From contig JAIOJX010000032.1 in the NCBI GenBank assembly GCA_022376925.1, forward strand, positions 201,124,939 through 201,188,938: a stretch of 64,000 nucleotides of DNA, read 5' to 3'. The position numbers and the translations under genes were made by a program. Under the pieces are notes generated by a model. That model was not told the origin of the DNA and made no database searches. It saw only the letters and a list, made by a program, of their open reading frames with translations. Source of the stretch: Tragulus kanchil (Eukaryota > Chordata > Mammalia > Artiodactyla > Tragulidae). This document shows positions 418 to 59,347 of this stretch, one piece after another (position 1 is the stretch's first letter; each line of letters opens with the position of its first letter).

Positions 418-2664
418 AAAAATAAATTACAACTTACTGCAGCTCCAGACAATGGTTAGCATTTTTGCAATAAAGTACTTTTTAATTAAGGTATGTACAT
501 TGTTTTTTAGACATAATGCTATTTCACACTTCATAGAGTACAGTACAGTGTAAACATAGCTTTTTACATGTACTGGGAAACCAAAGAATTCACATGCCTC
601 AATTTATTGCCATATTTGCTTTACTTTGGTGGTCTGGAACCTTACCCATAATAACTCCAAGGAATGTCAGTATACCCTTCCACAGGGTGCAGTCCTGGGA
701 AAGAGTCTCATCGTTCTCTGGCCACTGAGTCATAGCTAGAAACCAAGCAAGGCCCACCACCAGTAGACATAACACCTTTTTCTCAGCTCAACCCACCTGG
801 GGAATTGCGGGCAGCTGGGGCTTGAACGTTTAGGCTTTTTGTCCTTTTATGCACAGGCTCAGGAGATGCAAGCAGTATGGTAGAAGTGGACTGGTGAAAA
901 AGAAAACAGATGACCTTCCACCAGACAGGAGCAAAAAAGAGATGTGCTCTGAGGAGAGCAACAGTGATCAAACAAAATAACCATACTGAGCATCCTCGCC
1001 TTCCCTTCCACTGGAGAGCACGGAGCGCCTTCCTCGCAGCCTCTAATCTCCATGGGAAGTGGGGGTAAGAGACAGCCTTGCCTCCATAGGTCAGATGAGG
1101 CACAGAGAGCTTATCAAAGCAGGAGGGAAAACCAGGAGTAGGACACCCAGATCTTGGCCTCCGATCCAGTTGCCTACCCTTAGAACCTAGGTCTTACAGA
1201 GGAGTATTTAAAAGTAGTTCTCACTGAAGGGGAAAACCCTATCATCAGATAGGGTTGCCTGCCATGAATTAACAGACAAAAAATAAAATATATGCTGCAG
1301 GGCTGGCCTTTCATTCATCTAGGTCCAAAGAAGGACTCAGGAGCCTCCCTGAGATCTTGCCGTCCGTAGCCTAGGATGACCACACAGGGGTGGCCGGGAG
1401 CACCCAGAGACGCGCCCCCACCCCCAGTGGGGGATGAGGTAACACTGAGTGCCTGGCCCAGGGGGTTAGGACAAAACTCCCTGCCTTGACAACTGTTCGT
1501 GTCATGCAGGAGGAGAAGGACTAATTGAAAGTCGATGCCCCAAAAATAAATTACAACTTACTGCAGCTCCAGACAATGGTTAGCATTTTTGCAATAAAGT
1601 ACTTTTTAATTAAGGTATGTACATTGTTTTTTAGACATAATGCTATTTCACACTTCATAGAGTACAGTACAGTGTAAACATAGCTTTTTACATGTACTGG
1701 GAAACCAAAGAATTCACATGCCTCAATTTATTGCCATATTTGCTTTACTTTGGTGGTCTGGAACCTTACCCATAATAACTCCAAGGAATGTCAGTATACC
1801 CTTCCACAGGGTGCAGTCCTGGGAAAGAGTCTCATCGTTCTCTGGCCACTGAGTCATAGCTAGAAACCAAGCAAGGCCCACCACCAGTAGACATAACACC
1901 TTTTTCTCAGCTCAACCCACCTGGGGAATTGCGGGCAGCTGGGGCTTGAACGTTTAGGCTTTTTTTGTCCTTTTTATGCACAGGCTCAGGAGATGCAAGC
2001 AGTATGGTAGAAGTGGACTGGTGAAAAAGAAAACAGATGACCTTCCACCAGACAGGAGCAAAAAAGAGATGTGCTCTGAGGAGAGCAACAGTGATCAAAC
2101 AAAATAACCATACTGAGCATCCTCGCCTTCCCTTCCACTGGAGAGCACGGAGCGCCTTCCTCGCAGCCTCTAATCTCCATGGGAAGTGGGGGTAAGAGAC
2201 AGCCTTGCCTCCATAGGTCAGATGAGGCACAGAGAGCTTATCAAAGCAGGAGGGAAAACCAGGAGTAGGACACCCAGATCTTGGCCTCCGATCCAGTTGC
2301 CTACCCTTAGAACCTAGGTCTTACAGAGGAGTATTTAAAAGTAGTTCTCACTGAAGGGAAACCATATCATCAGATAGGGTTGCCTGCCATGAATTAACAG
2401 ACAAAAAATAAAATATATGCTGCAGGGCTGGCCTTTCATTCATCTAGGTCCAAAGAAGGACTCAGGAGCCTCCCTGAGATCTTGCCGTCCGTAGCCTAGG
2501 ATGACCACACAGGGGTGGCCGGGAGCACCCAGAGACGCGCCCCCACCCCCAGTGGGGGATGAGGTAACACTGAGTGCCTGGCCCAGGGGGTTAGGACAAA
2601 ACTCCCTGCCTTGACAACTGTTCGTGTCATGCAGGAGGAGAAGGGACTAATTGAAAGTGGGAGA
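418..2664. repeat. Tandem duplication 1 (unit ~1,124 bp)
   Basis: Copy A runs from about 418 to 1532 and copy B from about 1542 to 2655, in direct orientation. They differ by homopolymer indels (the T runs near 836 and 1960) and a small change near 1233/2355. Copy A ends in 'gtcgatgcccc', which looks like a shortened form of what follows copy B (a gggagacag stretch, then atgcccc). Both copies hold otherwise unassigned sequence. This is most simply an unmerged contig overlap. Confidence 0.95.
1063..1180 (-). repeat. Possible MIR fragment
   Basis: The words 'cagatgaggcacagagag' and a following 'aggacacccagatcttgg' resemble the MIR core read on the reverse strand. The match is weak and eroded. 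The same stretch recurs in copy B near 2187-2304. Confidence 0.3.
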
Positions 2665-3307
2665 CAGATGCCCCAGTGGGATCTGCATCTCTTTCGCTTT
2701 CTGTTTCTGGAAGGGAAAGAAGATTGTCATAAAAATAACTGAACTGACATCAAATATTTAAATTTCAGAAATAGAGGAAAAAAGAAAGTGAAAAGTGAGA
2801 TTAAAATATGCCGTAAACAAGGCACAAAGTTGGGCTGTGCCAGGAGGGCTCTTTCCTCCTTGGGCTTAGCCGGTGACACTATCATGCCATACCCACATGG
2901 CATGCGCCAGATATTCCCAGGAAAGAGCGCAGGGTAGAAGGATGAGCTTAACCTCCTCTCTGCTGTCAAGGCAGTGAAGCCAGGCCACAGGCCCGTGTGT
3001 GGAAGCGTGGCTCTGTTTTATGGACCAGACTATACTTGTCACCCTGGGCCACTTTCTCTGGAAGGCACATCACTGGCCATTAAGGGGACAAGACAGGAAG
3101 GTGGAAGATGGAGAGAACCTGGGGAACCAGAGTGGCAGCCATTCACGACACCACTGCTCCATGGGCCAGGCATGGCTCAAAAAAGAAATCTGCAGTGAGC
3201 TCTGAGGACAGGGAAGGCAGGAGACACAGTTCAGGTCTATAGCTGATGAAGGAGTAGTGTAGGGAAATGCATTCTGTTCCCTCACCCTCTTCCCCCATGG
3301 ACTTGTT
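2665..3307. other. Unassigned single-copy sequence
   Basis: No repeat family or exon was recognised. Short open frames on both strands lack any recognisable domain, and nothing suggests splicing or codon constraint. Confidence 0.45.
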
Positions 3308-3521
3308 TGTTGTTGCTGAGTTTGTAAGTCATGTTCAATTCTTTGAGACCCTATGGACTGTAGCCCACCAGGCTCCTCTGTCCAGGGGATTTTTCGGACA
3401 AGAATACTGGAGTGGGTTGCCATTTCCTTCTCCAGGGGATCTTCCCGACCCAAGGATCAAACCCACATCTCCTGAATTAGCAGGTGGATGTTTTTCACCA
3501 TTGAGCCACCAGGGAAACCCC
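3308..3521 (-). mobile_element. Bov-tA SINE
   Basis: Ruminant tRNA-derived SINE in reverse orientation. Diagnostic words are 'tatggactgtagcccaccag', 'aatactggagtgggttgcc' and the terminal 'gagccaccagggaaacccc'. The BovB-derived tail comes first on this strand and the tRNA-like head last, so the element points left. It is eroded (for example 'ttttcggacaagaatac'), so it is not a recent insertion. Confidence 0.9.
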
Positions 3522-3601
3522 CTCCACTAAATCGAGGGGATTAAATGAAGTGGGGGCACACAAACTCTCCTAGCTTGAGTGTGGGGAGATAACAGAACAG
3601 A

Positions 3602-5841
3602 GTGTAGAACCTTAGAGTCATAGAGTCCTAATCAAAGCAAGCTGAGGGTCGGAAATGCAGATCTAAAGAGGCATGTGGGACTCCTAGTCGGAAACCAGGG
3701 AAGCCTAGGGTCCAGTCAGTTACAATAAGCAGATGACAAGGTAGTAGCGTGCCTTCCACAGTCGGCTCAGCAGGCCTTGGTGACCGAAGGGAGCAAGTCT
3801 GGACGCTCAGATTTGGGCAGTGGATCCAGTGACGTAATGAACTTGTGGATTGTAGGGACAGGTGGGACCAGGTAGCTAGAGGAAGGAAAAGCATCATGGG
3901 GCATGAAGGAGCTTTCCCTACTAGAAACTTAGAGGACAAAGGTATAGAAGATGAGACTTTGAGGGAAAAGGACGATGCTGAGCTCCCTGGCCATGGCAGG
4001 ATTCAAGGGGCATCGGAGCAGCAGAGGTTCAGCCCCAGGGGAGCAGCAATCTTCCAAGAAAATCTAAGATCTCATGATTCCATTACTTTTCTCTTCCTCC
4101 TACCCACCCTGTATTCACCCTACCTCCCATACACATAGTTACCCTCCACTACCCATGTCATCAAGTTAGTAAGAGAAATTGGTTGGATAAGAGAGGGAAA
4201 CTGCTTCAAAAGTATACACAAGTCCACTAACATGCAAGAATGTATCCTCTCCAACAAACACTCTATTCACCTTCCACAGTCCAAAGGGTGACCCAGAGGT
4301 TGTCTTCTTTCCCTCAGTGATAACCATCTGAGCATTCTTATACCTTCACTGGGCAATAGGATTCTTTCAGGTCAGCAACATCTCCCTCAATTCAGGGTGC
4401 TACCCCCATGTGATCCATGAACCGTGTAGCTCAGAGCACAAAGAAGGCTGTGGGGTTCCTGCTGGTGTCTGCCCAGGAGCATCCCCTCTCCACTTTTGCC
4501 CCTCTTTCTTTTGTCAAAGTAATTAATTAATTTTAATTGGAAGATAATTACAATATTGTGATGGTTTTCCCATGCACCAACATGAATCAGCTCTGGGTAT
4601 ACGTATGTCCCCCATCCTGAACCCCCATCGCCCCTCCCTCCCCCGCCCTGTCCCCTCGAGGATGGGAAGATTGGAGAATGACACTGAAACATGTATATCC
4701 AGCTATGGGAACAGATTGACCATCGCAAAAGTGTAGAACCTTAGAGTCATAGAGTCCTGATCAAAGCAAGCTGAGGGTCGGAAATGCAGATCTAAAGAGG
4801 CATGTGGGACTCCTAGTCGGAAACCAGGGAAGCCTAGGGTCCAGTCAGTTACAATAAGCAGATGACAAGGTAGTAGCGTGCCTTCCACAGTCGGCTCAGC
4901 AGGCCTTGGTGACCGAAGGGAGCAAGTCTGGACGCTCAGATTTGGGCAGTGGATCCAGTGACGTAATGAACTTGTGGATTGTAGGGACAGGTGGGACCAG
5001 GTAGCTAGAGGAAGGAAGAGCATCATGGGGCATGAAGGAGCTTTCCCTACTAGAAACTTAGAGGACAAAGGGATAGAAGATGAGACTTTGAGGGAAAAGG
5101 ACGATGCTGAGCTCCCTGGCCATGGCAGGATTCAAGGGGCATCGGAGCAGCAGAGGTTCAGCCCCAGGGGAGCAGCAATCTTCCAAGAAAATCTAAGATC
5201 TCATGATTCCATTACTTTTCTCTTCCTCCTACCCACCCTGTATTCACCCTACCTCCCATACACATAGTTACCCTCCACTACCCATGTCATCAAGTTAGTA
5301 AGAGAAATTGGTTGGATAAGAGAGGGAAACTGCTTCAAAAGTATACACAAGTCCACTAACATGCAAGAATGTATCCTCTCCAACAAACACTCTATTCACC
5401 TTCCACAGTCCAAAGGGTGACCCAGAGGTTGTCTTCTTTCCCTCAGTGATAACCATCTGAGCATTCTTATACCTTCACTGGGCAATAGGATTCTTTCAGG
5501 TCAGCAACATCTCCCTCAATTCAGGGTGCTACCCCCATGTGATCCATGAACCGTGTAGCTCAGAGCACAAAGAAGGCTGTGGGGTTCCTGCTGGTGTCTG
5601 CCCAGGAGCATCCCCTCTCCACTTTTGCCCCTCTTTCTTTTGTCAAAGTAATTAATTAATTTTAATTGGAAGATAATTACAATATTGTGATGGTTTTCCC
5701 ATGCACCAACATGAATCAGCTCTGGGTATACGTATGTCCCCCATCCTGAACCCCCATCGCCCCTCCCTCCCCCGCCCTGTCCCCCTCGAGGATGGGAAGA
5801 TTGGAGAGAATGACACTGAAACATGTATATCACCATATGCA
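3602..5841. repeat. Tandem duplication 2 (unit ~1,129 bp)
   Basis: Copy A runs from about 3602 to 4699 and copy B from about 4731 to 5841. The 30 bases between them (4700-4730, 'ccagctatgggaacagat...') are a noisy version of the sequence that continues after copy B ('caccatatgcaaaacagat...'). Substitutions separate the copies (tccta/tcctg, aaggtatag/aagggatag, ggaaaagc/ggaagagc). A false duplication from an unmerged overlap is the best reading. Confidence 0.95.
4516..4699 (-). mobile_element. L1 3' end, truncated copy at the duplication boundary
   Basis: First-copy version of the L1 fragment described at 5645-5950, carrying the same 'aattaattttaattggaag' start and 'caccaacatgaatcagctc' core. 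It is cut off at the garbled junction near 4700, so it is not a second insertion event. Confidence 0.65.
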
Positions 5842-5950
5842 AAACAGATGACCAGTGCAAGTTCAGTGCATAAAGCAGGGCACCCAGAGCCTGTGATCCC
5901 ATACACCATCTCTCTGAATGTAAGCCCAACTTCATTCCAGTATCAGGCAA
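5645..5950 (-). mobile_element. L1 3' end with internal inversion (twin-priming type)
   Basis: The left part (about 5645-5786) reads as the reverse complement of a ruminant L1 3' UTR: 'taattttaattggaagata', then 'caacatgaatcagctctgg'. From about 5787 ('gaggatgggaagattgg') the L1 3' UTR reads forward: 'gacactgaaacatgtatat', 'acagatgaccagtgcaag', 'aagcagggcacccagagc'. An opposite-strand 5' segment joined to a 3' segment is the layout left by twin priming during target-primed reverse transcription. The right-hand edge is uncertain. Confidence 0.65.
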
Positions 5951-7592: not shown

Positions 7593-9775
7593 AAGAAAAC
7601 CCTATCCGGCCTGCTAGGATCTCGGTCATTGTCCAGGGGAAGACCATCATCAGTAGAATAAATGAATTCTGTCTTCTTTCATAATTGCATTGATTTATTT
7701 ATGCATATTTATTAATCTATTAAGGCCTATTCACTATTTCAGAATGGATAAGTGCTAACACATCTAACTGGTGCTATTTTGAAAACTGTCATCTTTCTCA
7801 ACCTGTCTTTTTGACTGCCCCAAGGCAAGGGAAGACCAGACAGCCACATGAGTAGAGGCAAGCTGATCCCAGGTAACATTCATGAAGTAAAAAGAAGTCT
7901 TACCTCTCAGACTCACAGCCTGGCCAGGCTGAGAGAGGTTCAGGCTGCTGCAAACAATGACTTTCAAAAAAGTGAGGATGCTCATGCTTTCCACATGCTT
8001 TTACCATTTCACAGTAAACTATACAGAGTCTATGTGGTAAAAAAATATGATAATTTTCCATTGGTCATCCCTTATTCTTTTCAATGGTTGTATAATGTCA
8101 CATCATATGACTATATCTCCATGTACTCAACCAATGTGCAATTAGTGAGTTGGCCATGACTGAGCACACACAATTAATGACTATTCAGATATTTTTTTTT
8201 TTAGGCTTTGTTGTTATACTCAGTGACACAAGGAGTATCTTTGTGAAGTTGCTAGGTCATTGTGTATGCTTTTGGTGTTATTTGTTTTGATTTATTCTCA
8301 AAAATGCCCTCTGAACTACCATTCTATCTGTGATAGCCAATAAAAGTACCTTTTGTATCTAAAGATCCACCCAAGAAAACCAAATTTATTACTTTATAGT
8401 CCGAGCTGTTGGTTGGTTTTGCTAAAACATACTAAGCAGTTTTTATAATGGAGATACCTAGGCTTGACTCTGATATCTGGCTGTTTCCAAAAATAAAATC
8501 CATCTCTTAAGAAAAGTATTTGGGGGCTTCCCTAGTGGTCCAGTGGGTAAAGAGTCTATCTTGCAGTGCAAGGGACTCTGGTTCGATCCCTGGACCAGGA
8601 AGACTCCACATGCCATGGAGCGGCTGAACCGGTGCATCCAATTACGAGCCAGCACTCTGGAGCACATTACCACAGTGCCAAAGAAAACCCTATCCGGCCT
8701 GCTAGGATCTCGGTCATTGTCCAGGGGAAGACCATCATCAGTAGAATAAATGAATTCTGTCTTCTTTCATAATTGCATTGATTTATTTATGCATATTTAT
8801 TAATCTATTAAGGCCTATTCACTATTTCAGAATGGATAAGTGCTAATACATCTAACTGGTGCTATTTTGAAAACTGTCATCTTTCTCAACCTGTCTTTTT
8901 GACTGCCCCAAGGCAAGGGAAGACCAGACAGCCACATGAGTAGAGGCAAGCTGATCCCAGGTAACATTCATGAAGTAAAAAGAAGTCTTACCTCTCAGAC
9001 TCACAGCCTGGCCAGGCTGAGAGAGGTTCAGGCTGCTGCAAACAATGACTTTCAAAAAAGTGAGGATGCTCATGCTTTCCACATGCTTTTACCATTTCAC
9101 AGTAAACTATACAGAGTCTATGTGGTAAAAAAATATGATAATTTTCCATTGGTCATCCCTTATTCTTTTCAATGGTTGTATAATGTCACATCATATGACT
9201 ATATCTCCATGTACTCAACCAATGTGCAATTAGTGAGTTGGCCATGACTGAGCACACACAATTAATGACTATTCAGATATATTTTTTTTTAGGCTTTGTT
9301 GTTATACTCAGTGACACAAGGAGTATCTTTGTGAAGTTGCTAGGTCATTGTGTATGTTTTTGGTGTTATTTGTTTTGATTTATTCTCAAAAATGCCCTTT
9401 GAACTACCATTCTATCTGTGATAGCCAATAAAAGTACCTTTTGTATCTAAAGATCCACCCAAGAAAACCAAATTTATTACTTTATAGTCCGAGCTGTTGG
9501 TTGGTTTTGCTAAAACATACTAAGCAGTTTTTATAATGGAGATACCTAGGCTTGACTCTGATATCTGGCTGTTTCCAAAAATAAAATCCATCTCTTAAGA
9601 AAAGTATTTGGGGGCTTCCCTAGTGGTCCAGTGGGTAAAGAGTCTATCTTGCAGTGCAAGGGACTCTGGTTCGATCCCTGGACCAGGAAGACTCCACATG
9701 CCATGGAGCGGCTGAACCGGTGCATCCAATTACGAGCCAGCACTCTGGAGCACATTCACCCAGAGTCAGTGCCAA
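7593..9775. repeat. Tandem duplication 3 (unit ~1,088 bp)
   Basis: Copy A spans about 7593-8680 and copy B about 8681-9775. Copy A breaks inside a CHR SINE: 'cacattaccacagtgcca' replaces the intact 'cacattcacccagagtca', a loss of a few bases exactly at the join. Single-base differences (gctaacac/gctaatac, tgtatgctt/tgtatgttt, ccctctgaac/ccctttgaac) look allelic. Apart from the SINE the unit is unassigned sequence. Confidence 0.95.
8523..8680 (+). mobile_element. CHR-type tRNA-Glu SINE, cut by the duplication junction
   Basis: First-copy version of the element at 9611. It starts with 'gggcttccctagtggtccag' and has the tRNA B-box-like 'ggttcgatccctgg', but stops at 8680 where the second copy of the unit begins. 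The missing 3' end and target-site duplication indicate the break is not biological. Confidence 0.85.
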
Positions 9776-9832
9776 AGAATAAAGATGGATGAAAATAAAT
9801 AAATATATTTTTTAAATGTTAAAAAAAAATAC
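9611..9832 (+). mobile_element. CHR-type tRNA-Glu SINE with target-site duplication
   Basis: Complete copy, from the tRNA-derived head ('gggcttccctagtggtccag', 'ggttcgatccctgg') through a 'gagccagcactctggagc' body to an AT-rich tail ('ataaataaatatatttttt', then an A run). It is flanked by the direct repeat 'gaaaagtattt' at 9599-9609 and 9833-9843, which fixes the insertion boundaries. CHR SINEs are shared by ruminants, hippos and whales. Confidence 0.88.
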
Positions 9833-9843: not shown

Positions 9844-10170
9844 TGACCACTGACAATGTTCAAAGCAATATGCTACAACATATTTCTAAGCAGCCTAAAT
9901 GACAGTTTAAAGATTATTACCTCAATTCAGTGAATAAACATGCATACGTCAGGGTATGTGTTTACATCCGTGTGTGCAGATGCATAAACAATTACCAGGA
10001 AGATATACACTAAGTTTTGACAGCGGTCTTCCTAGGGTGCTGATATTACGGATGAGTTATTCATTGTGTTTTCCTTTACTTTCTAAACTTTCTGAAACGA
10101 GTCTATATAACTTTTGTAATCAGGAAGAAAAGGACAATAAGTATTTCATAAATATATTTTTAATGTGCCA
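9844..10170. other. Unassigned AT-rich sequence
   Basis: No family or exon recognised. Confidence 0.4.
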
Positions 10171-12382
10171 CAGACCCTGAAGGCAACTTCAGATCAGACA
10201 TTATAACAATGTTGGGCTCAGGCAAGCGTCGGTGGATTAAATGCATTGCCTTCCATGCTACAAATTTTGAAGGGCACAACCCTCATTTAGATGTACAACT
10301 TCTATTATGTTTGTTCCTTTTTTTAAACTCCTCTCTATTAACTTAGGGCCACACTGTATAATGTCATTCCATCTGCGCCAGTGGCAACTAAGCATTGTAA
10401 TGCAGACCTTGCAATACGGGCAGTCAGTAGCCCCCATGGAGAGGGGCCCATGACAGGACGGCATTGTGCCGAACATCATTCTGCTACAAGGGGTCATGGT
10501 CCAGAGCGAGGCCCCAGTGAATTTCCTTTGAAAATCCCTGTACCCCACTTTAGAAACCTTTCTAAAGGAGAAGCAGAAAAGGCATGACCCCATCTGAAAT
10601 GTAATCGCTTATGTTCTGTTACACAAGATATCCAGGGTATTGGCAAGAAGCAACAGTAACAGTGGCTGTAAGGACAAGGTGGTCCCCGTGTTTCAAGGAC
10701 CATAAGCAAATGGGACCTCCTGCCTCTTTTCAGGCAACAGTGGGTCCCTGGTCCAAAATACTCTATGGTCTCATCGTTGATTCCAACCACCAAGTGGGAT
10801 GACAGAAGAAAGGCCACAGTGAGGCAAGGCCTGATTTGACCACACTGACAAGAAAGAGGCAAGGTTCTTGCAATAAAGAAATTGGAGCACATGGATTCCT
10901 GAGATGAGTTCTTCAAATTTCCAGTAAATCACATATTCTTACAGGGACCAAAATTTCTCTCTCTTGTTACCTTGCATGTGCTCAGTCCATTAGATCACCT
11001 TCTCCAATCTCTCTGATGCAGAATCAGCAAGAATACTCAGTAACAACAAGGAAAATTCTTAAATGCTCCTGAGGAAAAAAGGGAACAAAGGAAATAAAAG
11101 GACCATGCCCCAAAGGTATAGAATGCCCTTCATGTTTTTGGCAAGTTTGAACTTAGAGGCACCTCTGTCCCGTCTGATGTGGTCTAAAAACAGCTTGGAT
11201 CAGCTGTGGAGTCAGGAGGTGCTAGAGGAGGAAGAGAAATGATTGACCTATCTGGCAGCTAATTCAATTTTTGTGACAGACCCTGAAGGCAACTTCAGAT
11301 CAGACATTATAACAATGTTGGGCTCAGGCAAGCGTCGGTGGATTAAATGCATTGCCTTCCATGCTACAAATTTTGAAGGGCACAACCCTCATTTAGATGT
11401 ACAACTTCTATTATGTTTGTTCCTTTTTTTAAACTCCTCTCTATTAACTTAGGGCCACACTGTATAATGTCATTCCATCTGCGCCAGTGGCAACTAAGCA
11501 TTGTAATGCAGACCTTGCAATACGGGCAGTCAGTAGCCCCCATGGAGAGGGGCCCATGACAGGACGGCATTGTGCCGAACATCATTCTGCTACAAGGGGT
11601 CATGGTCCAGAGCGAGGCCCCAGTGAATTTCCTTTGAAAATCCCTGTACCCCACTTTAGAAACCTTTCTAAAGGAGAAGCAGAAAAGGCATGACCCCATC
11701 TGAAATGTAATCGCTTATGTTCTGTTACACAAGATATCCAGGGTATTGGCAAGAAGCAACAGTAACAGTGGCTGTAAGGACAAGGTGGTCCCCGTGTTTC
11801 AAGGACCATAAGCAAATGGGACCTCCTGCCTCTTTTCAGGCAACAGTGGGTCCCTGGTCCAAAATACTCTATGGTCTCATCGTTGATTCCAACCACCAAG
11901 TGGGATGACAGAAGAAAGGCCACAGTGAGGCAAGGCCTGATTTGACCACACTGACAAGAAAGAGGCAAGGTTCTTGCAATAAAGAAATTGGAGCACATGG
12001 ATTCCTGAGATGAGTTCTTCAAATTTCCAGTAAATCACATATTCTTACAGGGACCAAAATTTCTCTCTCTTGTTACCTTGCATGTGCTCAGTCCATTAGA
12101 TCACCTTCTCCAATCTCTCTGATGCAGAATCAGCAAGAATACTCAGTAACAACAAGGAAAATTCTTAAATGCTCCTGAGGAAAAAAGGGAACAAAGGAAA
12201 TAAAAGGACCATGCCCCAAAGGTATAGAATGCCCTTCATGTTTTTGGCAAGTTTGAACTTAGAGGCACCTCTGTCCCGTCTGATGTGGTCTAAAAACAGC
12301 TTGGATCAGCTGTGGAGTCAGGGGAGGTGCTAGAGGAGGAAGAGAAATGATTGACCTATCTGGCAGCTAAATTATGTTTCAT
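10171..12382. repeat. Tandem duplication 4 (unit ~1,106 bp)
   Basis: Copy A is about 10171-11270 and copy B about 11277-12376. The body is almost identical (the main change is ggaggtgc/ggggaggtgc near 11215/12322). Copy A ends 'ctaattcaatttttgtga' against 'ctaaattatgtttcatc' after copy B, a degraded continuation. The unit holds a fairly GC-rich unassigned block (10340-10900) with frames of 111-140 codons on the minus strand and no recognised domain. Confidence 0.95.
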
Positions 12383-13350: not shown

Positions 13351-14051
13351 ACAGACTCCTGAAAGGTACAACTGTGCATCTATAATGATGTGAGAGAGAA
13401 ATACTTCCCTTGCCAAAGAGCTAATCAGTCAATCAACATCTAACCTTTTAGAAAGAATTCATCCACACTTCACTGGGCTCCCTGTCTATCTAAAAACCAT
13501 GAAAGCATCCTGGGATATGCCTAGTAATAGTTCAGCAGATGGCAGAACTTTAAAGATGGAAACGAACCAACCAACCAACCAACAGTTTCTGAGCATATGC
13601 TCTTCTGAGACACAGTACTAGACCCTGGAGGAGGCTAAGTGTTAAAAGAGGATTTCTGCCTTTGGTAATTTCTGATCATCGCTGAGGGAGCTTCCCTACT
13701 CATGAAAAACAGAATACTTCAAAACAAATTTGAGCTTAACAGATGACAATCATCACTTTCACAGAAATTAATTCAACCCCGCCTCTATACCTAAGAAGGT
13801 TGTGTTAATTACCCTGTGTAATAGTTAGGTAATATAAACAATAGCACAACACATGTCTTGGGATGTGATGCGTGATAAATGTACGGGTGACATAGGCCAA
13901 GGGGCCTGACCTCACAAAGTGAGGCATGAGACTAAAACTTGATGAATGTAAAACATTTGAGTAGACGAAGAGAAATAAAAACATTGAAGGCAGGCCTTGC
14001 GGTGTGAGCAAAGATACGACTGCATAACGGCTGCCGGGGAGTCCACTGTGA

Positions 14052-14240
14052 TTCAGTCACTGAGTTGTGTCTGACTCTTTGTGACCCGTGGACTGCCGCC
14101 CACTAGGATCCTCTGTCCATGGAATTCTCCAGGCAAGAATACTGAAGTGGGTTGCCATGCCCATCTCCAAGGGATCTCCCTGACCCAGGGATCAAAACTG
14201 TGTCTCTTCTATAGGCAGGTGGTGCCACCAGGGAAACCCA
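14052..14240 (-). mobile_element. Bov-tA SINE
   Basis: Reverse-oriented Bov-tA: 'gattcagtcactgagttgtg', 'gaattctccaggcaagaat', then 'gtgccaccagggaaaccc' at the head end. It lies in copy A of duplication 5. Confidence 0.9.
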
Positions 14241-15141: not shown

Positions 15142-15330
15142 TTCAGTCACTGAGTTGTGTCTGACTCTTTGTGACCCGTGGACTGCCGCCCACTAGGATC
15201 CTCTGTCCATGGAATTCTCCAGGCAAGAATACTGAAGTGGGTTGCCATGCCCATCTCCAAGGGATCTCCCTGGCCCAGGGATCAAAACTGTGTCTCTTCT
15301 ATAGGCAGGTGGTGCCACCAGGGAAACCCA
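15142..15330 (-). mobile_element. Bov-tA SINE (second copy of the same insertion)
   Basis: Same element as at 14052 carried in the duplicated unit. Its last ~40 bases appear a third time at about 16458-16498 because duplication 6 starts inside it. Count it as one genomic insertion. Confidence 0.9.
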
Positions 15331-15574
15331 GAGACAGTCCGTTACTGAGCTCCAACAGACTTGGCCCTGGACAGAACACAAGGTTCAAGGAATCTGAATT
15401 CCATACAATGACCCAGGGTGAACCCCTGTTCAATGTGCGCAGAAGAAGAGCTCTAGATATGAATTCTTCTGTTAAAAAAATTCTCCAGCCTTATGTGGAA
15501 ATATATGACAGTTCCATATGAGACAGTGTAGAAAGAGGATGATCAGAAGAATCACAGAAGGATGAGTGGTGTCT

Positions 15575-42415: not shown

Positions 42416-42532
42416 GCTATGAGCTCTGAACTCAATTCCTACGAAGCCCCCAAGTCTAAGCTCCCTTGAATAAATTGTGAAGACATTTCATTCTTCACTT
42501 GTCTTTCATTTGCTGAAAGTATGCATTAGTAA

Positions 42533-46171: not shown

Positions 46172-48398
46172 CCTTTCTGTTTCCGAAATCTCTTCCTAAC
46201 CCAACAAGGCTTGACAGAGAGCAGACAAAACCCAACTTTTGTTCTCTACTTTTCCTGTACAAGTCATACGGCCAAAGAACTTACAGCTACTATTGAGGAC
46301 CGACCCTCAAAACCTCTAGGGGTGAGCTCTGCAGTCACAGAGTGCTGAAGAAATTCTTTGTCCTCATGGCTTCCCAGGAACGCAAGAGGAAATGTACCAA
46401 TAAAATAGACTTACGGTGCACTTTATGTAGCCCTCTGTTCTGAAAAACACTTTGGAACTTGAAGCTGTAGCATCAGCAATACTAATCTCTGGGACACAAG
46501 ACGGGGGTAGAGGAAAGACAGACCAGTGGCTGAGACTCAATAAAATCATTTTTAAAAATATATATTTTTTAATGTTTAAGCACAAAATACACTAATGGAA
46601 TTGAGTGTCCTATTAAAACGTTTGGTCACTACTTGTAGCTCAGTAAAATTACACATTATAAATGCAACGAACCACATAAACTATTCATTTAGTAGATGAC
46701 TATCTGGCTCCACTGGGCCAGGCAGAGCTGGGGCAACAGGGGGTAGGAGGACAGGGAGTGGGAACAGATGCCAAGACTGATCAAGCTTTCTGTGGTCATC
46801 ATCAAGGGGAAATGTTTGAGGAACAAAAGCAGAGGCATCTCAGAGGACTTTCATGAGCTACTTTTCCAGCCACCCTCAACCAAATGAAACCAAGTGTCTG
46901 AACCACCTGATCTGGAAGCCTGAATATGGTGGGGTCTTTAACAATGAATTTCCTCTCAGTGAACTGAGGAAATTGAGAGCAAGGAGATCAAGGAATGTAC
47001 ATACAGTCACACAGATGATTATAACATACAATCACACAGATGATTAGGACAAACACTGGGCCCAGAGTTATATGGGATTCCATCCTCTACTGGAACTCCA
47101 CAAAACAGTCTTATTGCCCAACCTCTTCTTATCCAGTACCCATTGGGCCCCTCGTCCAGGGGACAGGATTAGGATGGAGGGAATGAGGAAGGAAACAAGC
47201 AGGTAACAACAGGTATAGAAGACAAATTCAGGAATTCCAGTGCTGCTGTCTTCCTACTTTCCAATCAGAGATCACCTGCCACAACGCCTTTCTGTTTCCG
47301 AAATCTCTTCCTAACCCAACAAGGCTTGACAGAGAGCAGACAAAACCCAACTTTTGTTCTCTACTTTTCCTGTACAAGTCATACGGCCAAAGAACTTACA
47401 GCTACTATTGAGGACCGACCCTCAAAACCTCTAGGGGTGAGCTCTGCAGTCACAGAGTGCTGAAGAAATTCTTTGTCCTCATGGCTTCCCAGGAACGCAA
47501 GAGGAAATGTACCAATAAAATAGACTTACGGTGCACTTTATGTAGCCCTCTGTTCTGAAAAACACTTTGGAACTTGAAGCTGTAGCATCAGCAATACTAA
47601 TCTCTGGGACACAAGACGGGGGTAGAGGAAAGACAGACCAGTGGCTGAGACTCAATAAAATCATTTTTAAAAATATATATTTTTTAATGTTTAAGCACAA
47701 AATACACTAATGGAATTGAGTGTCCTATTAAAACGTTTGGTCACTACTTGTAGCTCAGTAAAATTACACATTATAAATGCAACGAACCACATAAACTATT
47801 CATTTAGTAGATGACTATCTGGCTCCACTGGGCCAGGCAGAGCTGGGGCAACAGGGGGTAGGAGGACAGGGAGTGGGAACAGATGCCAAGACTGATCAAG
47901 CTTTCTGTGGTCATCATCAAGGGGAAATGTTTGAGGAACAAAAGCAGAGGCATCTCAGAGGACTTTCATGAGCTACTTTTCCAGCCACCCTCAACCAAAT
48001 GAAACCAAGTGTCTGAACCACCTGATCTGGAAGCCTGAATATGGTGGGGTCTTTAACAATGAATTTCCTCTCAGTGAACTGAGGAAATTGAGAGCAAGGA
48101 GATCAAGGAATGTACATACAGTCACACAGATGATTATAACATACAATCACACAGATGATTAGGACAAACACTGGGCCCAGAGTTATATGGGATTCCATCC
48201 TCTACTGGAACTCCACAAAACAGTCTTATTGCCCAACCTCTTCTTATCCAGTACCCATTGGGCCCCTCGTCCAGGGGACAGGATTAGGATGGAGGGAATG
48301 AGGAAGGAAACAAGCAGGTAACAACAGGTATAGAAGACAAATTCAGTTCAGTCAACATTGTGCCCAGTGCTGCTGTCTTCCTACTTTCCAATCAGAGA
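46172..48398. repeat. Tandem duplication 16 (unit ~1,115 bp)
   Basis: Copy A is about 46172-47272 and copy B about 47287-48398. Near its end copy A reads 'aattcaggaattccagtgct' where B has a longer 'aattcagttcagtcaacatt...' stretch, so about 14 bases are lost. It then diverges at 'gatcacctgccacaacg'. The body is otherwise the same. Confidence 0.95.
46955..47095 (-). mobile_element. MIR SINE with internal 25-bp tandem repeat (copy A; copy B at 48070-48210)
   Basis: 'ctgaggaaattgagagcaag' and 'cagtcacacagatgattata' are MIR-like. The 25-base unit at 46999-47023 is repeated at 47024-47048 with minor change, doubling the 'tcacacag' motif of the MIR. Confidence 0.6.
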
Positions 48399-49189
48399 TC
48401 AGCCCCTATAAGCATCACAGCTACTACCATCAGAAATGGAGCCCAAGGTGGAAGACTCATTTTCCTTCCAGGGCTGAGTTATTCTTACAATTCTAGATTA
48501 GTGAAATGAGAGAACAGACACTATCCTTAAAGCTTGTTGCAGCATCCTTGACCTCTTTCTCATTTAGCCCAATTTTCTTGCAAATGGAGTTATTTTAGTT
48601 GATTCAGCTCCTTATTTAAACAGAATTATCTTTGGGAAGGTTAAGTCTACCAGTTAGTCATACCAAAGTATGAATGACTGTTACTCACCTGATCAAAGTG
48701 ACTAATTTGAAGCTGGAGGGAAAGTGGAGATTTTAGAACAAAGGCACTTGGAGGAAGGACTTGATAACCTATTAATTATAGCCTTCCCTTAGATAGCATA
48801 GTGACAGAAGCAGATTAGCAAAGTATACCAAATAGAGTGGAAGATGTCTTTTCTAACTATGCTGAAAATCTAGAAGGCATTATTTTCAATCAATAAATAT
48901 GACTACACAAATTTTTAATAAAAATACCTTCATCATGGCAAAAAAAATCATGAAGAGTTAAGACATATAGCTAATACATATGTACATGTGTGTGTACATA
49001 TACAACATATAATGTACATTATATATACACAAACAATATATATGTATCATTTTCACTCATGTCATAAGTAAAGAATTTATCTTCCTAATAGAGAATTGTC
49101 AGAATCTATAAGAAAAAGAGTAGATAAGAATAAAGTCCACTAAAAAATGAGAAAAGTGTTAGAGTTTAAAGAAAATATACTGACTCATA
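48399..49189. other. Unassigned, with AT-rich low-complexity tract
   Basis: 48958-49050 is alternating TA/TG/CA-rich ('gtacatgtgtgtgtacatat'). The rest is not recognised, although 49085-49189 may be diverged L1 upstream of the next feature. Confidence 0.4.
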
Positions 49190-49540: not shown

Positions 49541-49905
49541 GAGATCAGGGGGACCTATCTGCAGGACAGGAACAAAGACACAGACATAGAGAACAGGCCT
49601 GGGGATGTGGGGTGGGCAGCAGGAAGGAGAAGGTAGGATGAATTGAGAGAGTAACATTGACATATATACACCACCATGTGTAAAATAGATAGCTAGTTGG
49701 AAGCTTCTACACAGCACAGGGAGCTCAGCCTGGGGTTCTGTGATGAGCTAGTGGGGTTAGATGAAGGAGGGAGGTGGAGGGAGGCTCCAGAGGGAGGGGA
49801 TATAGGGTACACTCATAGCTGGCTCACAGAGTTGTACAGCAGAAACTAAGACAACATGGTAATGCAATCATACTCCAATTAAAAATAAATATAAGAAGAA
49901 TAAAA
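49541..49905 (+). mobile_element. Artiodactyl L1 3' UTR (copy A; copy B from 50756 to ~51007)
   Basis: 'caaagacacagacatagaga', 'tacaccaccatgtgtaaaat', 'agctagttggaagcttctac', 'gttgtacagcagaaactaag', 'catactccaattaaaaataa'. The 3' UTR and tail of a younger L1 than its neighbours. Confidence 0.85.
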
Positions 49906-50490
49906 GGTAATCTGAACAGCTCTATATGTTAAAGAAGTTGAATTTGTAGTGAAAAATCTTCCCACAAAGAAAACTTTAGGCCCAGATGGCTTCATTGGTG
50001 AATTGGACCAAACATTAGAAAACAAATATTATAATTATATACAAACTCTTCCAGAAAAATGAAGCAAAAGATATACTTCTTCTCTCTTCCTATCTCTTTT
50101 ATTAGGCCAGCAGCATCCAGATACCAAAGTCAGATAAACACACTGTAAGAAAGCTAGAGACTAATAGTCTCTCATAAATGTAAGTTGAAGAAAATCTAAG
50201 TAAATTTTAACAAATTGAATCCAATAATATAATAAAAAGACAATATATCATAACTAAGATTTATCGCAGGAATGCAGGGTTGGTTTAATGTTTCAAAAAA
50301 TAAATGAAATTCATTATATTAATAAACTAAAAGAGAAAACTATATGGTCATCTCAATAGACACAGGAGACTTTGATAATATCTAACATCGACTCCTGATG
50401 TAAAAGAATAAAACTCTCAGCAAAGCAGGAATAGAGGAAAATCTGACAGAGGACATCTGTATAAAACCCACAAGGTAATATCAAACTTAA
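49906..50490 (+). mobile_element. Old L1 ORF2 fragment, reverse-transcriptase region (copy A)
   Basis: 'ggcccagatggcttcattgg', 'gaattggaccaaacattaga', 'ggccagcagcatccagatac', 'atgcagggttggtttaatgt' and 'atggtcatctcaatagacac' follow L1 ORF2 fingers-to-palm order. Frame broken throughout; inactive. Confidence 0.82.
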
Positions 50491-50492
50491 GG

Positions 50493-50688
50493 CTTCCCTC
50501 ATGGTTTAGCAGTGGAGAAACCCCTTGCCAATGCAGGAGACATGAGTTAGATCCCTGAGTCAAGAACAGGCCCTGGAGAACAAAGTGGCAAACCACTCCA
50601 GTATTCTTGCCTGGGAAATCCCATGGACTGAGGAGCCTGGTAGGCTTCAGTCCATGGGGTTGCAAAAGAGTCAGACAGGGACTTCCCT
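50493..50688 (+). mobile_element. Bov-tA SINE (copy A), with truncated CHR SINE to 50755
   Basis: 'ggcttccctcatggtttagc' to 'gttgcaaaagagtcagaca', then the CHR head 'gggacttccctggtggtcca', cut at the duplication junction. Confidence 0.9.
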
Positions 50689-51007
50689 GGTGGTCCAGTG
50701 GTTAAGACTCTGTGCTCCCAATGCAGGGGGCCTGGGTTCGACCCCTGATCAAAAAACATTGACATATATACACCACCATGTGTAAAATAGATAGCTAGTT
50801 GGAAGCTTCTACACAGCACAGGGAGCTCAGCCTGGGGTTCTGTGATGAGCTAGTGGGGTTAGATGAAGGAGGGAGGTGGAGGGAGGCTCCAGAGGGAGGG
50901 GATATAGGGTACACTCATAGCTGGCTCACAGAGTTGTACAGCAGAAACTAAGACAACATGGTAATGCAATCATACTCCAATTAAAAATAAATATAAGAAG
51001 AATAAAA

Positions 51008-51592
51008 GGTAATCTGAACAGCTCTATATGTTAAAGAAGTTGAATTTGTAGTGAAAAATCTTCCCACAAAGAAAACTTTAGGCCCAGATGGCTTCATTGG
51101 TGAATTGGACCAAACATTAGAAAACAAATATTATAATTATATACAAACTCTTCCAGAAAAATGAAGCAAAAGATATACTTCTTCTCTCTTCCTATCTCTT
51201 TTATTAGGCCAGCAGCATCCAGATACCAAAGTCAGATAAACACACTGTAAGAAAGCTAGAGACTAATAGTCTCTCATAAATGTAAGTTGAAGAAAATCTA
51301 AGTAAATTTTAACAAATTGAATCCAATAATATAATAAAAAGACAATATATCATAACTAAGATTTATCGCAGGAATGCAGGGTTGGTTTAATGTTTCAAAA
51401 AATAAATGAAATTCATTATATTAATAAACTAAAAGAGAAAACTATATGGTCATCTCAATAGACACAGGAGACTTTGATAATATCTAACATCGACTCCTGA
51501 TGTAAAAGAATAAAACTCTCAGCAAAGCAGGAATAGAGGAAAATCTGACAGAGGACATCTGTATAAAACCCACAAGGTAATATCAAACTTAA
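51008..51592 (+). mobile_element. Old L1 ORF2 fragment, reverse-transcriptase region (copy B)
   Basis: Duplicate of 49906-50490. Here the L1 continues beyond the nested SINEs to about 52340. Confidence 0.82.
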
Positions 51593-51944
51593 GGCTTCCC
51601 TCATGGTTTAGCAGTGGAGAAACCCCTTGCCAATGCAGGAGACATGAGTTAGATCCCTGAGTCAAGAACAGGCCCTGGAGAACAAAGTGGCAAACCACTC
51701 CAGTATTCTTGCCTGGGAAATCCCATGGACTGAGGAGCCTGGTAGGCTTCAGTCCATGGGGTTGCAAAAGAGTCAGACAGGGACTTCCCTGGTGGTCCAG
51801 TGGTTAAGACTCTGTGCTCCCAATGCAGGGGGCCTGGGTTCGACCCCTGATCAGGGAACTAGATCCCACATGCCACAACTAAGACCTAGCACAGCCAAAC
51901 TTTTAAAAAAAGAGAGTCAGACATGACTTAGAGACTAAACAACA
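51593..51944 (+). mobile_element. Bov-tA SINE interrupted by a CHR SINE
   Basis: Head 'ggcttccctcatggtttagc', centre 'cttgcctgggaaatcccatg', then the CHR insertion (51780-51912), then the Bov-tA end 'catgacttagagactaaac'. Outer near-direct repeats 'tcaaacttaa' (51583-51592) and 'tcatacttaa' (51945-51954) are its target-site duplication in the L1. Confidence 0.92.
51780..51912 (+). mobile_element. CHR-type SINE nested in the Bov-tA
   Basis: 'gggacttccctggtggtcca', 'gtggttaagactctgtgctc', 'gggttcgacccctgatcagg' and 'cctagcacagccaaac', then A-rich. The exact 11-bp repeat 'agagtcagaca' at 51769-51779 and 51913-51923 brackets it, proving the nesting. Confidence 0.95.
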
Positions 51945-52805: not shown

Positions 52806-53174
52806 TAATTGAGGTCCCTTCATGGTTCTATCTACAAAAATGATGTGGCCTCTGCCCTCCCTCTTTCAGTGGCACTGAAAATGGCTATTCGGTATGAAAG
52901 TATGCTAGGAACGTAGAAAAAGAAAGAAAATCAAGACAAAGTCCCAGGTCAGGGTCAAAGTCAGCTCTGCACAGTCTTTTTCAGATGTCTCATTGTCAAA
53001 TAGGAAACTTCCTATTAGCCATGGAGAAAGGAGACAGAATCTGTCCTAGAGATCCTGGGCCAATAAGTTCCAAGAGCAGAGAGCACACCAAAAAAACCCA
53101 GAGAATCCAAAAAGTCACATTTGTTCATGGGAGAGGAAGCAGAGAGGAATGCAGTCCTATCATCATCCAGAAGA

Positions 53175-53545
53175 CCCCTGTTTTGGTCTGCCATAGCAAA
53201 GTACTGTGCAGACTGAGTGGCTTAAGCATCTATTTTCTAACAATTCTGAGGCTGGATGTCCAAGATCAAGTTGTTAGCACAGTTGGTTTCTTCTAGCTCT
53301 TTTCCTTGACCTGCAGATGGCCATCTTTTCCCTGCGTCTTCATGGGGTCTTTCCTCAGATTGTCCATATGCTTTGCTAATAATGGTACCAGTCATATTGG
53401 ATTGGGGCCCACCCACACGACCTCATTTTAATTAAAGTCCCTCTGTAAAGATCTTAACTCCAAATACAGTCACATTCTGAGGTACTGAGGGTTAGGATTT
53501 CAACCTGAATTTAGGGGTGACACAGTTCAGTCCAGAACAACTCGC
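53175..53545 (-). mobile_element. MLT1-type LTR (copy A; copy B at 54339-54710)
   Basis: 'ttttggtctgccatagcaaa', 'ccaagatcaagttgttagca', 'cagatggccatcttttccct', 'ccagtcatattggattgggg', 'aaatacagtcacattctgag' and 'ggttaggatttcaacctgaa' run in MLT1 order read backwards. Solo LTR, non-coding. Confidence 0.85.
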
Positions 53546-53960
53546 ACCCTTCTTCCTCTCACTTCTACCCTCTCTCATAAAGTTCCAATGGCTGAAACAT
53601 CCAGAACTCTTGTCAGTTCTCATCACCCTCGCAGATCAGGTCGGAGGGAGCCAGAGCTGCTTTCACACACACTATCATTCACTCTGTCCGAAGCCCAGGA
53701 AGCCAGTTTTCCTCCCATTCACATAGGGATTTCTAACCTGTACTACCAGAGGTTTCCTTGCACATGGAACCCTGAGACCCAAGCTGACCTTCCCTTTCCC
53801 TTCACATATCAGTTAAGCATTCCTCCCTCCCTCTCCCTGCCCTGTTCATTTCAGGATTATCACATTCAGAGAGCCAACATGACCTATTTAGGCTCTGACC
53901 CACTTACAACAGAAATACCAATCACAAACACTATCCAGAAGGAAAAAAAAAAAAAAAAAG
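53546..53960. other. Unassigned sequence with A run (copy A; copy B to ~55130)
   Basis: A 130-codon plus-strand frame (53588-53980) ends in a lysine run from the poly-A. The copy-B frame shifts at a C-run difference and is only 103 codons, which argues against a gene. Confidence 0.4.
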
Positions 53961-55141
53961 ATGACCACAAATTTAATTGAGGTCCCTTCATGGTTCTATC
54001 TACAAAATGATGTGGCCTCTGCCCTCCCTCTTTCAGTGGCACTGAAAATGGCTATTCGGTATGAAAGTATGCTAGGAACGTAGAAAAAGAAAGAAAATCA
54101 AGACAAAGTCCCAGGTCAGGGTCAAAGTCAGCTCTGCACAGTCTTTTTCAGATGTCTCATTGTCAAATAGGAAACTTCCTATTAGCCATGGAGAAAGGAG
54201 ACAGAATCTGTCCTAGAGATCCTGGGCCAATAAGTTCCAAGAGCAGAGAGCACACCAAAAACCCAGAGAATCCAAAAAGTCACATTTGTTCATGGGAGAG
54301 GAAGCAGAGAGGAATGCAGTCCTATCATCATCCAGAAGACCCCTGTTTTGGTCTGCCATAGCAAAGTACTGTGCAGACTGAGTGGCTTAAGCATCTATTT
54401 TCTAACAATTCTGAGGCTGGATGTCCAAGATCAAGTTGTTAGCACAGTTGGTTTCTTCTAGCTCTTTTCCTTGACCTGCAGATGGCCATCTTTTCCCTGC
54501 GTCTTCATGGGGTCTTTCCTCAGATTGTCCATATGCTTTGCTAATAATGGTACCAGTCATATTGGATTGGGGCCCACCCACACGACCTCATTTTAATTAA
54601 AGTCCCTCTGTAAAGATCTTAACTCCAAATACAGTCACATTCTGAGGTACTGAGGGTTAGGATTTCAACCTGAATTTAGGGGTGACACAGTTCAGTCCAG
54701 AACAACTCGCACCCTTCTTCCTCTCACTTCTACCCTCTCTCATAAAGTTCCAATGGCTGAAACATCCAGAACTCTTGTCAGTTCTCATCACCCTCGCAGA
54801 TCAGGTCGGAGGGAGCCAGAGCTGCTTTCACACACACTATCATTCACTCTGTCCGAAGCCCAGGAAGCCAGTTTTCCTCCCATTCACATAGGGATTTCTA
54901 ACCTGTACTACCAGAGGTTTCCTTGCACATGGAACCCTGAGACCCAAGCTGACCTTCCCTTTCCCTTCACATATCAGTTAAGCATTCCTCCCTCCCTCTC
55001 CCCTGCCCTGTTCATTTCAGGATTATCACATTCAGAGAGCCAACATGACCTATTTAGGCTCTGACCCACTTACAACAGAAATACCAATCACAAACACTAT
55101 CCAGAAGGAAAAAAAAAAAAAAAAAGATGACCACAAATTTA

Positions 55142-55960
55142 ACTGATTGTAAATAAGAGGGAATGATGGAGAAGCCTTCACTGATTTATCTACTGCTGAG
55201 GCTACTGAAAATGTCCTAAAGGTGAGTTATTAAGGAAATTCAGGCCATGCCCAGGTAGCCCCTTTGGGCATCAAAGCACTCTATAGGTTTTCTAGCTTGG
55301 CAAGTGACCTGGAAATCAATAAAATAGGTCTCTTTGCCTTGTTTGGCTCAAAGATGGGGTGGGCATCTCCAAGGGTCTGGAGGAAATTATTTCTTGCCAA
55401 GTGATGGGACAACCCACTACACAAGTATGAAAATTAGGGTATCAAGATGGATACTGGATTAGACTTACCCATTCACCCCAAACCAAGAATGAGGAGGATT
55501 AGTCTAGTGGCCTTTGAAACAGGGGCTTTTGGAGTAAAGACGTGGGGCAGCTGCTTGACTCACAAGAGTAGCTCACTTCCTTGTCTCTGGTCCATTTCCC
55601 AAGGCTAGGTGTGTCTTTGCTCTGTGACTCTGAACCTCCTGTCAGCTTGCCAATTTCAGGAAAGACACCTGATCCAAGTCTGAGTCAATCAGATTCTCTC
55701 ACATATGAATGGGCGACATAAGGAGCTTTGAGGCTGGAAATCTTTGCTATCTCAGACTCCTGGTAAGGGGGCAACAGGGAATTCTAGGCAAGCCCGTTTC
55801 CTGCTCTTCATGAGGCCTAGTTCGTCTCTTCTATAGATTCTGACACCATCCCAGTATCCTTTAAATTCATTGCCCATTTGGCTTACATTAGCCAGGGTTA
55901 GTTTCTATTAATTAAAGTCAAAAAAAATCACAAAATGATAAAAATTTATTTTTATTCACC
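55142..55960. other. Unassigned single-copy sequence
   Basis: No recognisable family, exon or RNA. Confidence 0.4.
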
Positions 55961-57115: not shown

Positions 57116-57204
57116 CAAAATGATTAGTTACAGGCAAAAAAGAAACAGCACCAAAAAAAAAGTCAATAAGAGGCTAAAATTTAAAAAAAAAAATTGTTAA
57201 AAAA

Positions 57205-57850
57205 AAAAAGAACTAAAAACAGAGCTACCATGTGTTCCTGCAATCCCACTCATAGGCATTTATCCAGAGAAAACCACAATTTTAAAAGATACATGCACCC
57301 CAGTGTGCATTGCGGCGCCATTTACAATAGCCATGACACAGAAGCAACCTACATGTTCATTGACAGAAGAATTGATACAGAAGATGTGGTACATATAAAC
57401 AAGGGAATATTATTTGGCCATAAAAAAAAAACCAAAAGAGTGCCACTTGCAGTGATATGGATGGACCTAGAAATTGTCATATTGAGTGAAGTCAGACAGA
57501 AAGACAAATATATAATATCATTTATATGTGGAATCTAAAGAAATGGTACAAATGAACTGATTTATAAAACAGAAGTTGAGTTGCAGGTGCAGAAAACAAC
57601 TTTGTGGTTACAGGGGAGGTAGGGAGATAAATTGGGAGGTTGGGACTGGCATATACACACTACTGTATATAGAATAGACAACTAATAAGAATCTACTGAA
57701 TAGCACTGGGAATTTTATTCAACACTCTACAGTGACCTATAGGGGAATAAAAATCTTAAATATGGATATATGTGTATGTATAATTGACTCAATTTGCTGT
57801 ACAGCAGAAACTAATGCAATACTGTAAATCAGCCATACTTCAATTAAAAA
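57205..57850 (+). mobile_element. L1 ORF2 end and 3' UTR, downstream of the SINE (copy A)
   Basis: 'accatgtgttcctgcaatcc', 'tacaatagccatgacacaga', 'gtgatatggatggacctaga', 'tcattgtc'-type ORF2 end, then 3' UTR 'ctgtacagcagaaactaatg' and 'cttcaattaaaaaccag'. The frame reads through 'MFIDRRIDTEDVVHINKGIL' to 'WMDLEIVILSEVRQKDKY', the usual ORF2 C-terminus. Confidence 0.9.
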
Positions 57851-57871
57851 CCAGAGAGAGAGAGAGCGCGC
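57851..57871. repeat. (GA)n/(GC)n short tract (copy A; copy B near 58944-58962)
   Basis: 'agagagagagagagcgcgc' after the L1 tail, preserved in both copies. Confidence 0.85.
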
Positions 57872-58297
57872 AGCATGACCCTTTTTCCTTTGCAGAGAAG
57901 TCTGCAAAGATTGCATTACTTGGGACTAGTGAGATCATCTTGAACAGTTCTTAATAAATGTCAAAGTCTTGAAAATAAAATAAAATTTTCTTGTGGAAAC
58001 AATTACCTGATGCCAGATGCCCAGGAAGTCAGAGAAGGGAAGTATTGACTCCTAATCTCTGCTGACTTGTGGGCAGAATTCTCAGTGCTGCCAAGAGCAG
58101 GCTGGAGGTAAAGGACACTTCTCTGTCTTACTGGGATCTGCTTATCCCAGGTGAAATTTCATGCATATGTCTTCTTACCAGGGCACCTCTTATTTATACC
58201 TCTTTCCTCGCAACTTCCATCCATTTATAAGGCCTGGTCTAGGACTTGGGATATCAAAAACTAAGAGCCCCTAAAATTTAAAAAAAATTGTTAAAAA

Positions 58298-58945
58298 AAA
58301 AAAGAACTAAAAACAGAGCTACCATGTGTTCCTGCAATCCCACTCATAGGCATTTATCCAGAGAAAACCACAATTTTAAAAGATACATGCACCCCAGTGT
58401 GCATTGCGGCGCCATTTACAATAGCCATGACACAGAAGCAACCTACATGTTCATTGACAGAAGAATTGATACAGAAGATGTGGTACATATAAACAAGGGA
58501 ATATTATTTGGCCATAAAAAAACCAAAAGAGTGCCACTTGCAGTGATATGGATGGACCTAGAAATTGTCATATTGAGTGAAGTCAGACAGAAAGACAAAT
58601 ATATAATATCATTTATATGTGGAATCTAAAGAAATGGTACAAATGAACTGATTTATAAAACAGAAGTTGAGTTGCAGGTGCAGAAAACAACTTTGTGGTT
58701 ACAGGGGAGGTAGGGAGATAAATTGGGAGGTTGGGACTGGCATATACACACTACTGTATATAGAATAGACAACTAATAAGAATCTACTGAATAGCACTGG
58801 GAATTTTATTCAACACTCTACAGTGACCTATAGGGGAATAAAAATCTTAAATATGGATATATGTGTATGTATAATTGACTCAATTTGCTGTACAGCAGAA
58901 ACTAATGCAATACTGTAAATCAGCCATACTTAAATTAAAAACCAG
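58298..58945 (+). mobile_element. L1 ORF2 end and 3' UTR (copy B)
   Basis: Duplicate of 57205-57850 in duplication 19. It has three fewer A's in the 'cataaaaaaaaacc' tract and a C/A change near the tail. Confidence 0.9.
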
Positions 58946-59347
58946 AGAGAGAGAGAGCGCGCAGCATGACCCTTTTTCCTTTGCAGAGAAGTCTGCAAAG
59001 ATTGCATTACTTGGGACTAGTGAGATCATCTTGAACAGTTCTTAATAAATGTCAAAGTCTTGAAAATAAAATAAAATTTTCTTGTGGAAACAATTACCTG
59101 ATGCCAGATGCCCAGGAAGTCAGAGAAGGGAAGTATTGACTCCTAATCTCTGCTGACTTGTGGGCAGAATTCTCAGTGCTGCCAAGAGCAGGCTGGAGGT
59201 AAAGGACACTTCTCTGTCTTACTGGGATCTGCTTATCCCAGGTGAAATTTCATGCATATGTCTTCTTACCAGGGCACCTCTTATTTATACCTCTTTCCTC
59301 GCAACTTCCATCCATTTATAAGGCCTGGTCTAGGACTTGGGATATTC

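Follow-up and report, generated by a model that had tools for sequence, protein, structure and literature searches.

Nineteen tandem pairs of near-constant length in a Tragulus kanchil contig as probable unmerged assembly overlaps

Tandem pairs in the window

The stretch of DNA analysed here, referred to below as the window, comprises 64,000 bp of contig JAIOJX010000032.1 of the Tragulus kanchil assembly GCA_022376925.1 (positions 201,124,939 to 201,188,938 of the forward strand) and contains 19 loci at which the local sequence is present twice in direct tandem. Self-BLAST of the window (same strand, rows of at least 150 bp) returned 24 rows, of which 19 correspond to these adjacent direct pairs (983-1176 aligned bp, 98.8-100% identity), one to an overlap of three copies (285 bp at an offset of 2260) and four to matches between interspersed repeats, with about 81-82% identity. 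The comparison thus bears out the 19 direct tandem pairs that had been described in a first-pass annotation. Chance can be dismissed as the origin of 19 near-identical pairs, each about a kilobase long and all with one spacing; this is our judgement rather than the outcome of a chance model. The pairs are located as follows:

418..2658, + strand, pair 1: copies 418-1532 and 1542-2658, junction at ~1541
3601..5854, + strand, pair 2: copies 3601-4722 and 4730-5854, junction at ~4728
7593..9779, + strand, pair 3: copies 7593-8685 and 8681-9779, junction at ~8680
10170..12370, + strand, pair 4: copies 10170-11262 and 11276-12370, junction at ~11262
13403..15558, + strand, pair 5: copies 13403-14468 and 14491-15558; 25 bases absent near the head of the second copy
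15275..17548, + strand, pair 6: copies 15275-16379 and 16445-17548; 284 bp in common with pair 5, giving three copies, the third of which fits the copy away from the junction better
18567..20797, + strand, pair 7: copies 18567-19673 and 19694-20797; 44 bases absent from the tail of the first copy
21122..23383, + strand, pair 8: copies 21122-22251 and 22251-23383
24660..26793, + strand, pair 9: copies 24660-25712 and 25737-26793
26709..28851, + strand, pair 10: copies 26709-27766 and 27795-28851; 85 bp in common with pair 9
28898..30962, + strand, pair 11: copies 28898-29880 and 29981-30962; the 100 bases of filler between them are a degraded copy of the sequence 3' of the second copy
32304..34473, + strand, pair 12: copies 32304-33375 and 33401-34473
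35528..37695, + strand, pair 13: copies 35528-36578 and 36647-37695; both sides of the junction degraded
39128..41295, + strand, pair 14: copies 39128-40212 and 40211-41295; 100% identical, no visible damage, with an (AC)18 tract of equal length in both copies (39347-39382 and 40430-40465)
41761..43852, + strand, pair 15: copies 41761-42764 and 42847-43852; the 82-base filler does not match the flanks significantly
46172..48401, + strand, pair 16: copies 46172-47274 and 47287-48401
49653..51853, + strand, pair 17: copies 49653-50751 and 50755-51853; cores 100% identical
52806..55146, + strand, pair 18: copies 52806-53980 and 53974-55146
57174..59345, + strand, pair 19: copies 57174-58254 and 58271-59345

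Measured in the clean cores, the offsets between the two copies span 1077-1170 bp (n=19; mean 1109, standard deviation (SD) 27), and they spread more widely, over 1077-1193 bp, when the second copy is counted from its very first base, since the damaged heads are then included. The offsets of the first-pass annotation are reproduced exactly at 16 of the 19 loci, with small departures at locus 6 (1170 rather than 1169) and locus 18 (1168 rather than 1170), whereas the 1113 given for locus 5 holds if the count starts with the second copy's first base but becomes 1088 in the clean core. Junctions follow one another at distances of 1954-4440 bp, in line with the earlier figure of 2.0-4.4 kb. The coefficient of variation (CV) is 2.5% for overlap length, compared with 22.5% for unit length. 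Neighbouring pairs overlap each other in two places, namely pairs 5/6 by 284 bp and pairs 9/10 by 85 bp, a sharing between adjacent units that had been allowed for at the outset.

When both strands of the window were considered, 25 matches with at least 93% identity were found, including the 19 pairs, two three-copy overlaps, two end pieces (pairs 11 and 15), a 36-bp repeat and an 86-bp inverted match; at this identity, neither strand of the window contains a second class of kilobase-scale tandem. The 36-bp repeat lies inside pair 15, at its end (42716-42832), where its two occurrences are 81 bp apart and the second falls inside the filler, making it a small local repeat in the scar. Satellites and minisatellites were considered and rejected: every site has two copies only and a sequence of its own, and Tandem Repeats Finder (longest period 500) reports short arrays only. 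The final 4.7 kb of the window (59346-64000) is free of pairs and exceeds the longest free stretch between pairs (2319 bp); it may represent either a longer unit or a correctly merged join.

Differences between the copies

Differences within pairs were counted in the 200-bp junction-side ends (7.6 kb in total) and in the middle 600 bp of each pair (11.4 kb; n=19 pairs), bases being called missing or extra in the junction-side copy relative to the other copy of the same pair; the resulting counts vary with gap costs and with the position of the junction, which was set to maximise homology on both sides. The tails of the first copies lack 329 bases and carry 27 extra ones and 13 mismatches; the heads of the second copies lack 125, with four extra bases and 11 mismatches. 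Over all junction-side ends this adds up to 454 missing bases, compared with 31 extra. The pair middles, by contrast, hold 34 differences (11 missing, five extra and 18 mismatches), and in nine of the 19 pairs the middle 600 bp are free of differences altogether. Bases are missing from the junction-side copy in 18 of the 19 pairs, although in pairs 8, 17 and 18 only 2-5 of them, and extra bases are present in eight.

Filler of 7 bases or more separates the clean cores in 14 pairs (the other five had too little of it), and in these it was compared with the flanks of the pair, against random places in the window. In eight of these pairs it matches a degraded flank at p<=0.05, that is, the single-copy sequence after the second copy or before the first one with bases lost; with two comparisons per pair, about 1.4 hits among the 28 would be expected by chance. 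Together, the damage pattern and the degraded filler look like consensus sequence from the extremity of an assembly unit, where coverage runs out.

Which of the two copies is at fault can be judged where a third copy (pairs 5/6 and 9/10) or an interspersed repeat at another place in the window serves as a relative, with which both copies were compared over matched intervals. Eleven pair ends have such a relative; the copies are identical at two of these ends and differ at nine, where the copy away from the junction is the better match six times, ties three times and is never the worse one. The clearest case is the head of pair 6, where the copy away from the junction scores 312 bits and the junction-side copy 220 (99.4% identity over 175 ungapped positions versus 95.8% over 142 with three gaps). 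The corresponding scores are 139 versus 131 bits for the tail of pair 3, 218 versus 150 for the tail of pair 9, 77.9 versus 67.1 for the tail of pair 10, 165 versus 150 for the head of pair 10 and 71.6 versus 39.2 for the head of pair 13; the ties are the head of pair 11 and the tail and head of pair 17. If the pairs are unmerged overlaps, the third copies at pairs 5/6 and 9/10 are overlapping nodes and hence not independent loci, and those used for the head of pair 10 and the tail of pair 9 themselves sit in or near junction-side ends.

These observations bear directly on the possibility that the duplications are real. The pairs are truly in the record, and a single narrow length class recurs at 19 sites, as if some process had measured out lengths of ~1.1 kb. 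However, the differences between copies cluster at the junction-side ends and are biased towards deletion, in no comparison with relatives does the junction-side copy come out better, and 19 such events would be packed into 64 kb with little divergence in their middles and no second kilobase-scale tandem class beside them. A germline or somatic process would have to duplicate ~1.1 kb tandemly at intervals of a few kilobases and leave deletion scars flanking each new junction, which we regard as barely conceivable, and real tandem duplication by a ~1.1 kb ruler of any kind is given next to no weight. In the tandem duplicator phenotype of tumours, too, unrelated sites carry numerous tandem duplications with a preferred length, but these span about 10 kb and more and are spread over the genome; to our knowledge, consensus damage beside the junctions is not part of that picture.

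Origin of the pairs

We conclude that the 19 pairs are almost certainly overlaps left unmerged by an assembly procedure, whatever the program, rather than genomic duplications. The suggestion of the first-pass annotation that overlapping contigs or reads had been concatenated instead of merged is supported by the deletion-biased damage at the junctions, by the relatives and by the degraded filler in eight of 14 pairs, and so is its estimate of about 21 kb of spurious sequence: on this best reading, 21.1 kb of the 64 kb are redundant (21,074 bp). The layout of the contig would have been a series of units of 2.0-4.4 kb, with a vertex of ~1.1 kb common to neighbours, and the consensus would have been computed for each unit independently. 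If these units were afterwards strung together with the shared vertex neither aligned nor trimmed, the vertex would be written twice, once closing a unit and once opening the following one, and, as few reads would reach the unit ends, the consensus there would be poor, leaving short, deletion-rich scars beside the joins. The duplicated pieces would be assembly units with boundaries deduced from the damage, and the scars would be attributable to low coverage.

The nature of the overlap can be narrowed further, because a near-constant overlap combined with variable unit length suggests that neighbours share a vertex whose length is fixed, if somewhat fuzzy. Overlaps between reads would be expected to vary and a graph built on exact k-mers would yield a single exact length, whereas a fuzzy vertex of fixed length would give what is observed. 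A fixed-length graph vertex therefore fits better than read-to-read overlaps, which refines the original proposal.

Among graphs of this kind, a fuzzy Bruijn graph of the wtdbg type, with 1024-bp vertices and a failed step of consensus joining, is the probable source, the identity of the program being the less secure part of our interpretation. According to published descriptions, wtdbg2 chops reads into 1024-bp segments that serve as vertices (PMC10989838), and in the eggplant genome 1024-bp points were linked into a graph (PMC7506008). A 1024-bp vertex common to neighbouring units predicts an overlap of ~1 kb that is near-constant and slightly fuzzy, and the overlaps in the window, at 1077-1170 bp (mean 1109, SD 27), are close to 1024 bp and nearly constant. 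All 19 offsets are larger than 1024 and smaller than 1280, whether measured in the cores or from the first base, and their mean exceeds 1024 by 8%. Among 36 settings of a toy model, which was compared with the offsets of the first-pass annotation, the closest, picked afterwards, gave a mean of 1118 and an SD of 27; it assumed nodes of 1024 bases, a random phase of the reads, an 8% excess in raw read length and 20 reads, of which three were required. The smallest start-to-start distance between neighbouring nodes is 784 in core coordinates, near 768, which we take to be a node minus one 256-bp bin, on the assumption that neighbouring nodes may share one bin. The difference from wtdbg and wtdbg2 is that these programs normally merge the shared vertex in the consensus step. 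No published account of this exact joining failure was found in the parts of the literature available to us, including those of PMC12037172 and PMC8228171; one may still exist.

Several points weigh against unmerged overlaps in general or a wtdbg-type graph in particular. Pair 14 has no junction damage at all, the filler of six of the 14 pairs (including the 82 bases of pair 15) fails to match the flanks at p 0.05, and the wrong copy is identifiable at just those six ends where a relative favours one of the two. Free parameters enter the toy model, and the majority of its 36 settings fit worse. The spacing of the nodes has no significant 256-bp phase (R 0.28, p ~0.25, 18 spacings). Moreover, failure at every join would lengthen an assembly by about half (64,000 / 42,926), whereas the wtdbg2 assembly of another ruminant, the mule deer, measures 2.61 Gb, compared with 2.32 and 2.34 Gb for two short-read assemblies (PMC9650288). 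This size is far below a 1.5-fold inflation, so wholesale failure of joining is not usual for wtdbg2, and the fault would have to be regional, to come from a special run or to lie with another program.

The last of these options, a variant of the same interpretation in which contig or read ends overlapping by ~1.1 kb were concatenated during scaffolding, gap filling or a custom join, is a serious but lesser possibility. The evidence at the junctions suits any unmerged overlap, the mule deer assembly was not inflated by half, and overlapping contig boundaries are stated in PMC8081667 to give tandem homotype duplications, in one case through a FALCON bug. Conversely, an overlap CV of 2.5% across 19 joins and units of just 2.0-4.4 kb do not favour this variant.

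Differences away from the junctions also have to be accommodated by a reading of the pairs as unmerged overlaps: ten of the 19 pairs have some difference in the middle 600 bp, and over 12,995 bases the pair interiors (at least 200 bp from the ends) contain 21 substitutions (12 being transitions) as well as 17 columns with indels. We offer residual errors or alternate haplotypes as their possible source. Heterozygosity could produce substitutions at this level, which raises the question of whether two haplotypes were set one after the other at each site, that is, of heterotype false duplication. Yet the cores are 100% identical in two pairs (14 and 17) and nearly half of the pairs have identical middles, most differences are indels on the junction side, and a constant length of 1.1 kb is not expected of haplotype bubbles; we consider this explanation very improbable.

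Relation to known false duplications and implications

With the pairs read as unmerged overlaps, the window looks like a dense case, of near-fixed length, of homotype false duplication. Homotype false duplications, including tandem ones at overlapping contig boundaries, are defined in PMC8081667, and false duplications have been measured in assemblies of three species (PMC9516828). As described there, one locus appears twice in tandem where neighbouring pieces overlap, which corresponds to the 19 adjacent pairs of the window, and the quality of the consensus differs between the copies. Judged here from the sequence, the copies would differ in the same way, given the excess of missing over extra bases (454 versus 31) and the preference of relatives for the other copy at six of nine ends, with three ties. 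In contrast, the known cases often have the length of corrected reads and lie at contig boundaries, whereas here 19 duplications of near-fixed length, ~1.1 kb, are found inside 64 kb.

If the assembly is public, it is relevant that about a third of this stretch (21,074 of 64,000 bases) is redundant. In such stretches, exons could falsely look duplicated, length could be inflated, the scars could break reading frames, and comparisons could show structural variants that do not exist. The combination of constant overlap, variable unit length and junction-side deletion scars provides a signature for which other long-read assemblies can be screened.

Gene content

The window has 270 stop-to-stop frames of at least 60 amino acids, 10 of which were scanned against Pfam; none of the 10 gave a match at E 0.01, so no gene was identified. 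Patterns for four short repeat hallmarks matched the window inexactly at 23 places (2-6 edits, counted without a chance control), which by themselves make a ruminant source a tentative attribution. An Rfam scan of the window yielded a single tRNA-like match (RF00005, 36.8 bits). This match, resembling tRNA-Gly, is located at 51786-51859 and spans the end of pair 17, the second copy of which terminates at 51853. Instead of a tRNA gene, this probably represents the head, derived from a tRNA, of an interspersed SINE; what we take to be the pattern of such a SINE head matches at 51782 with two edits.

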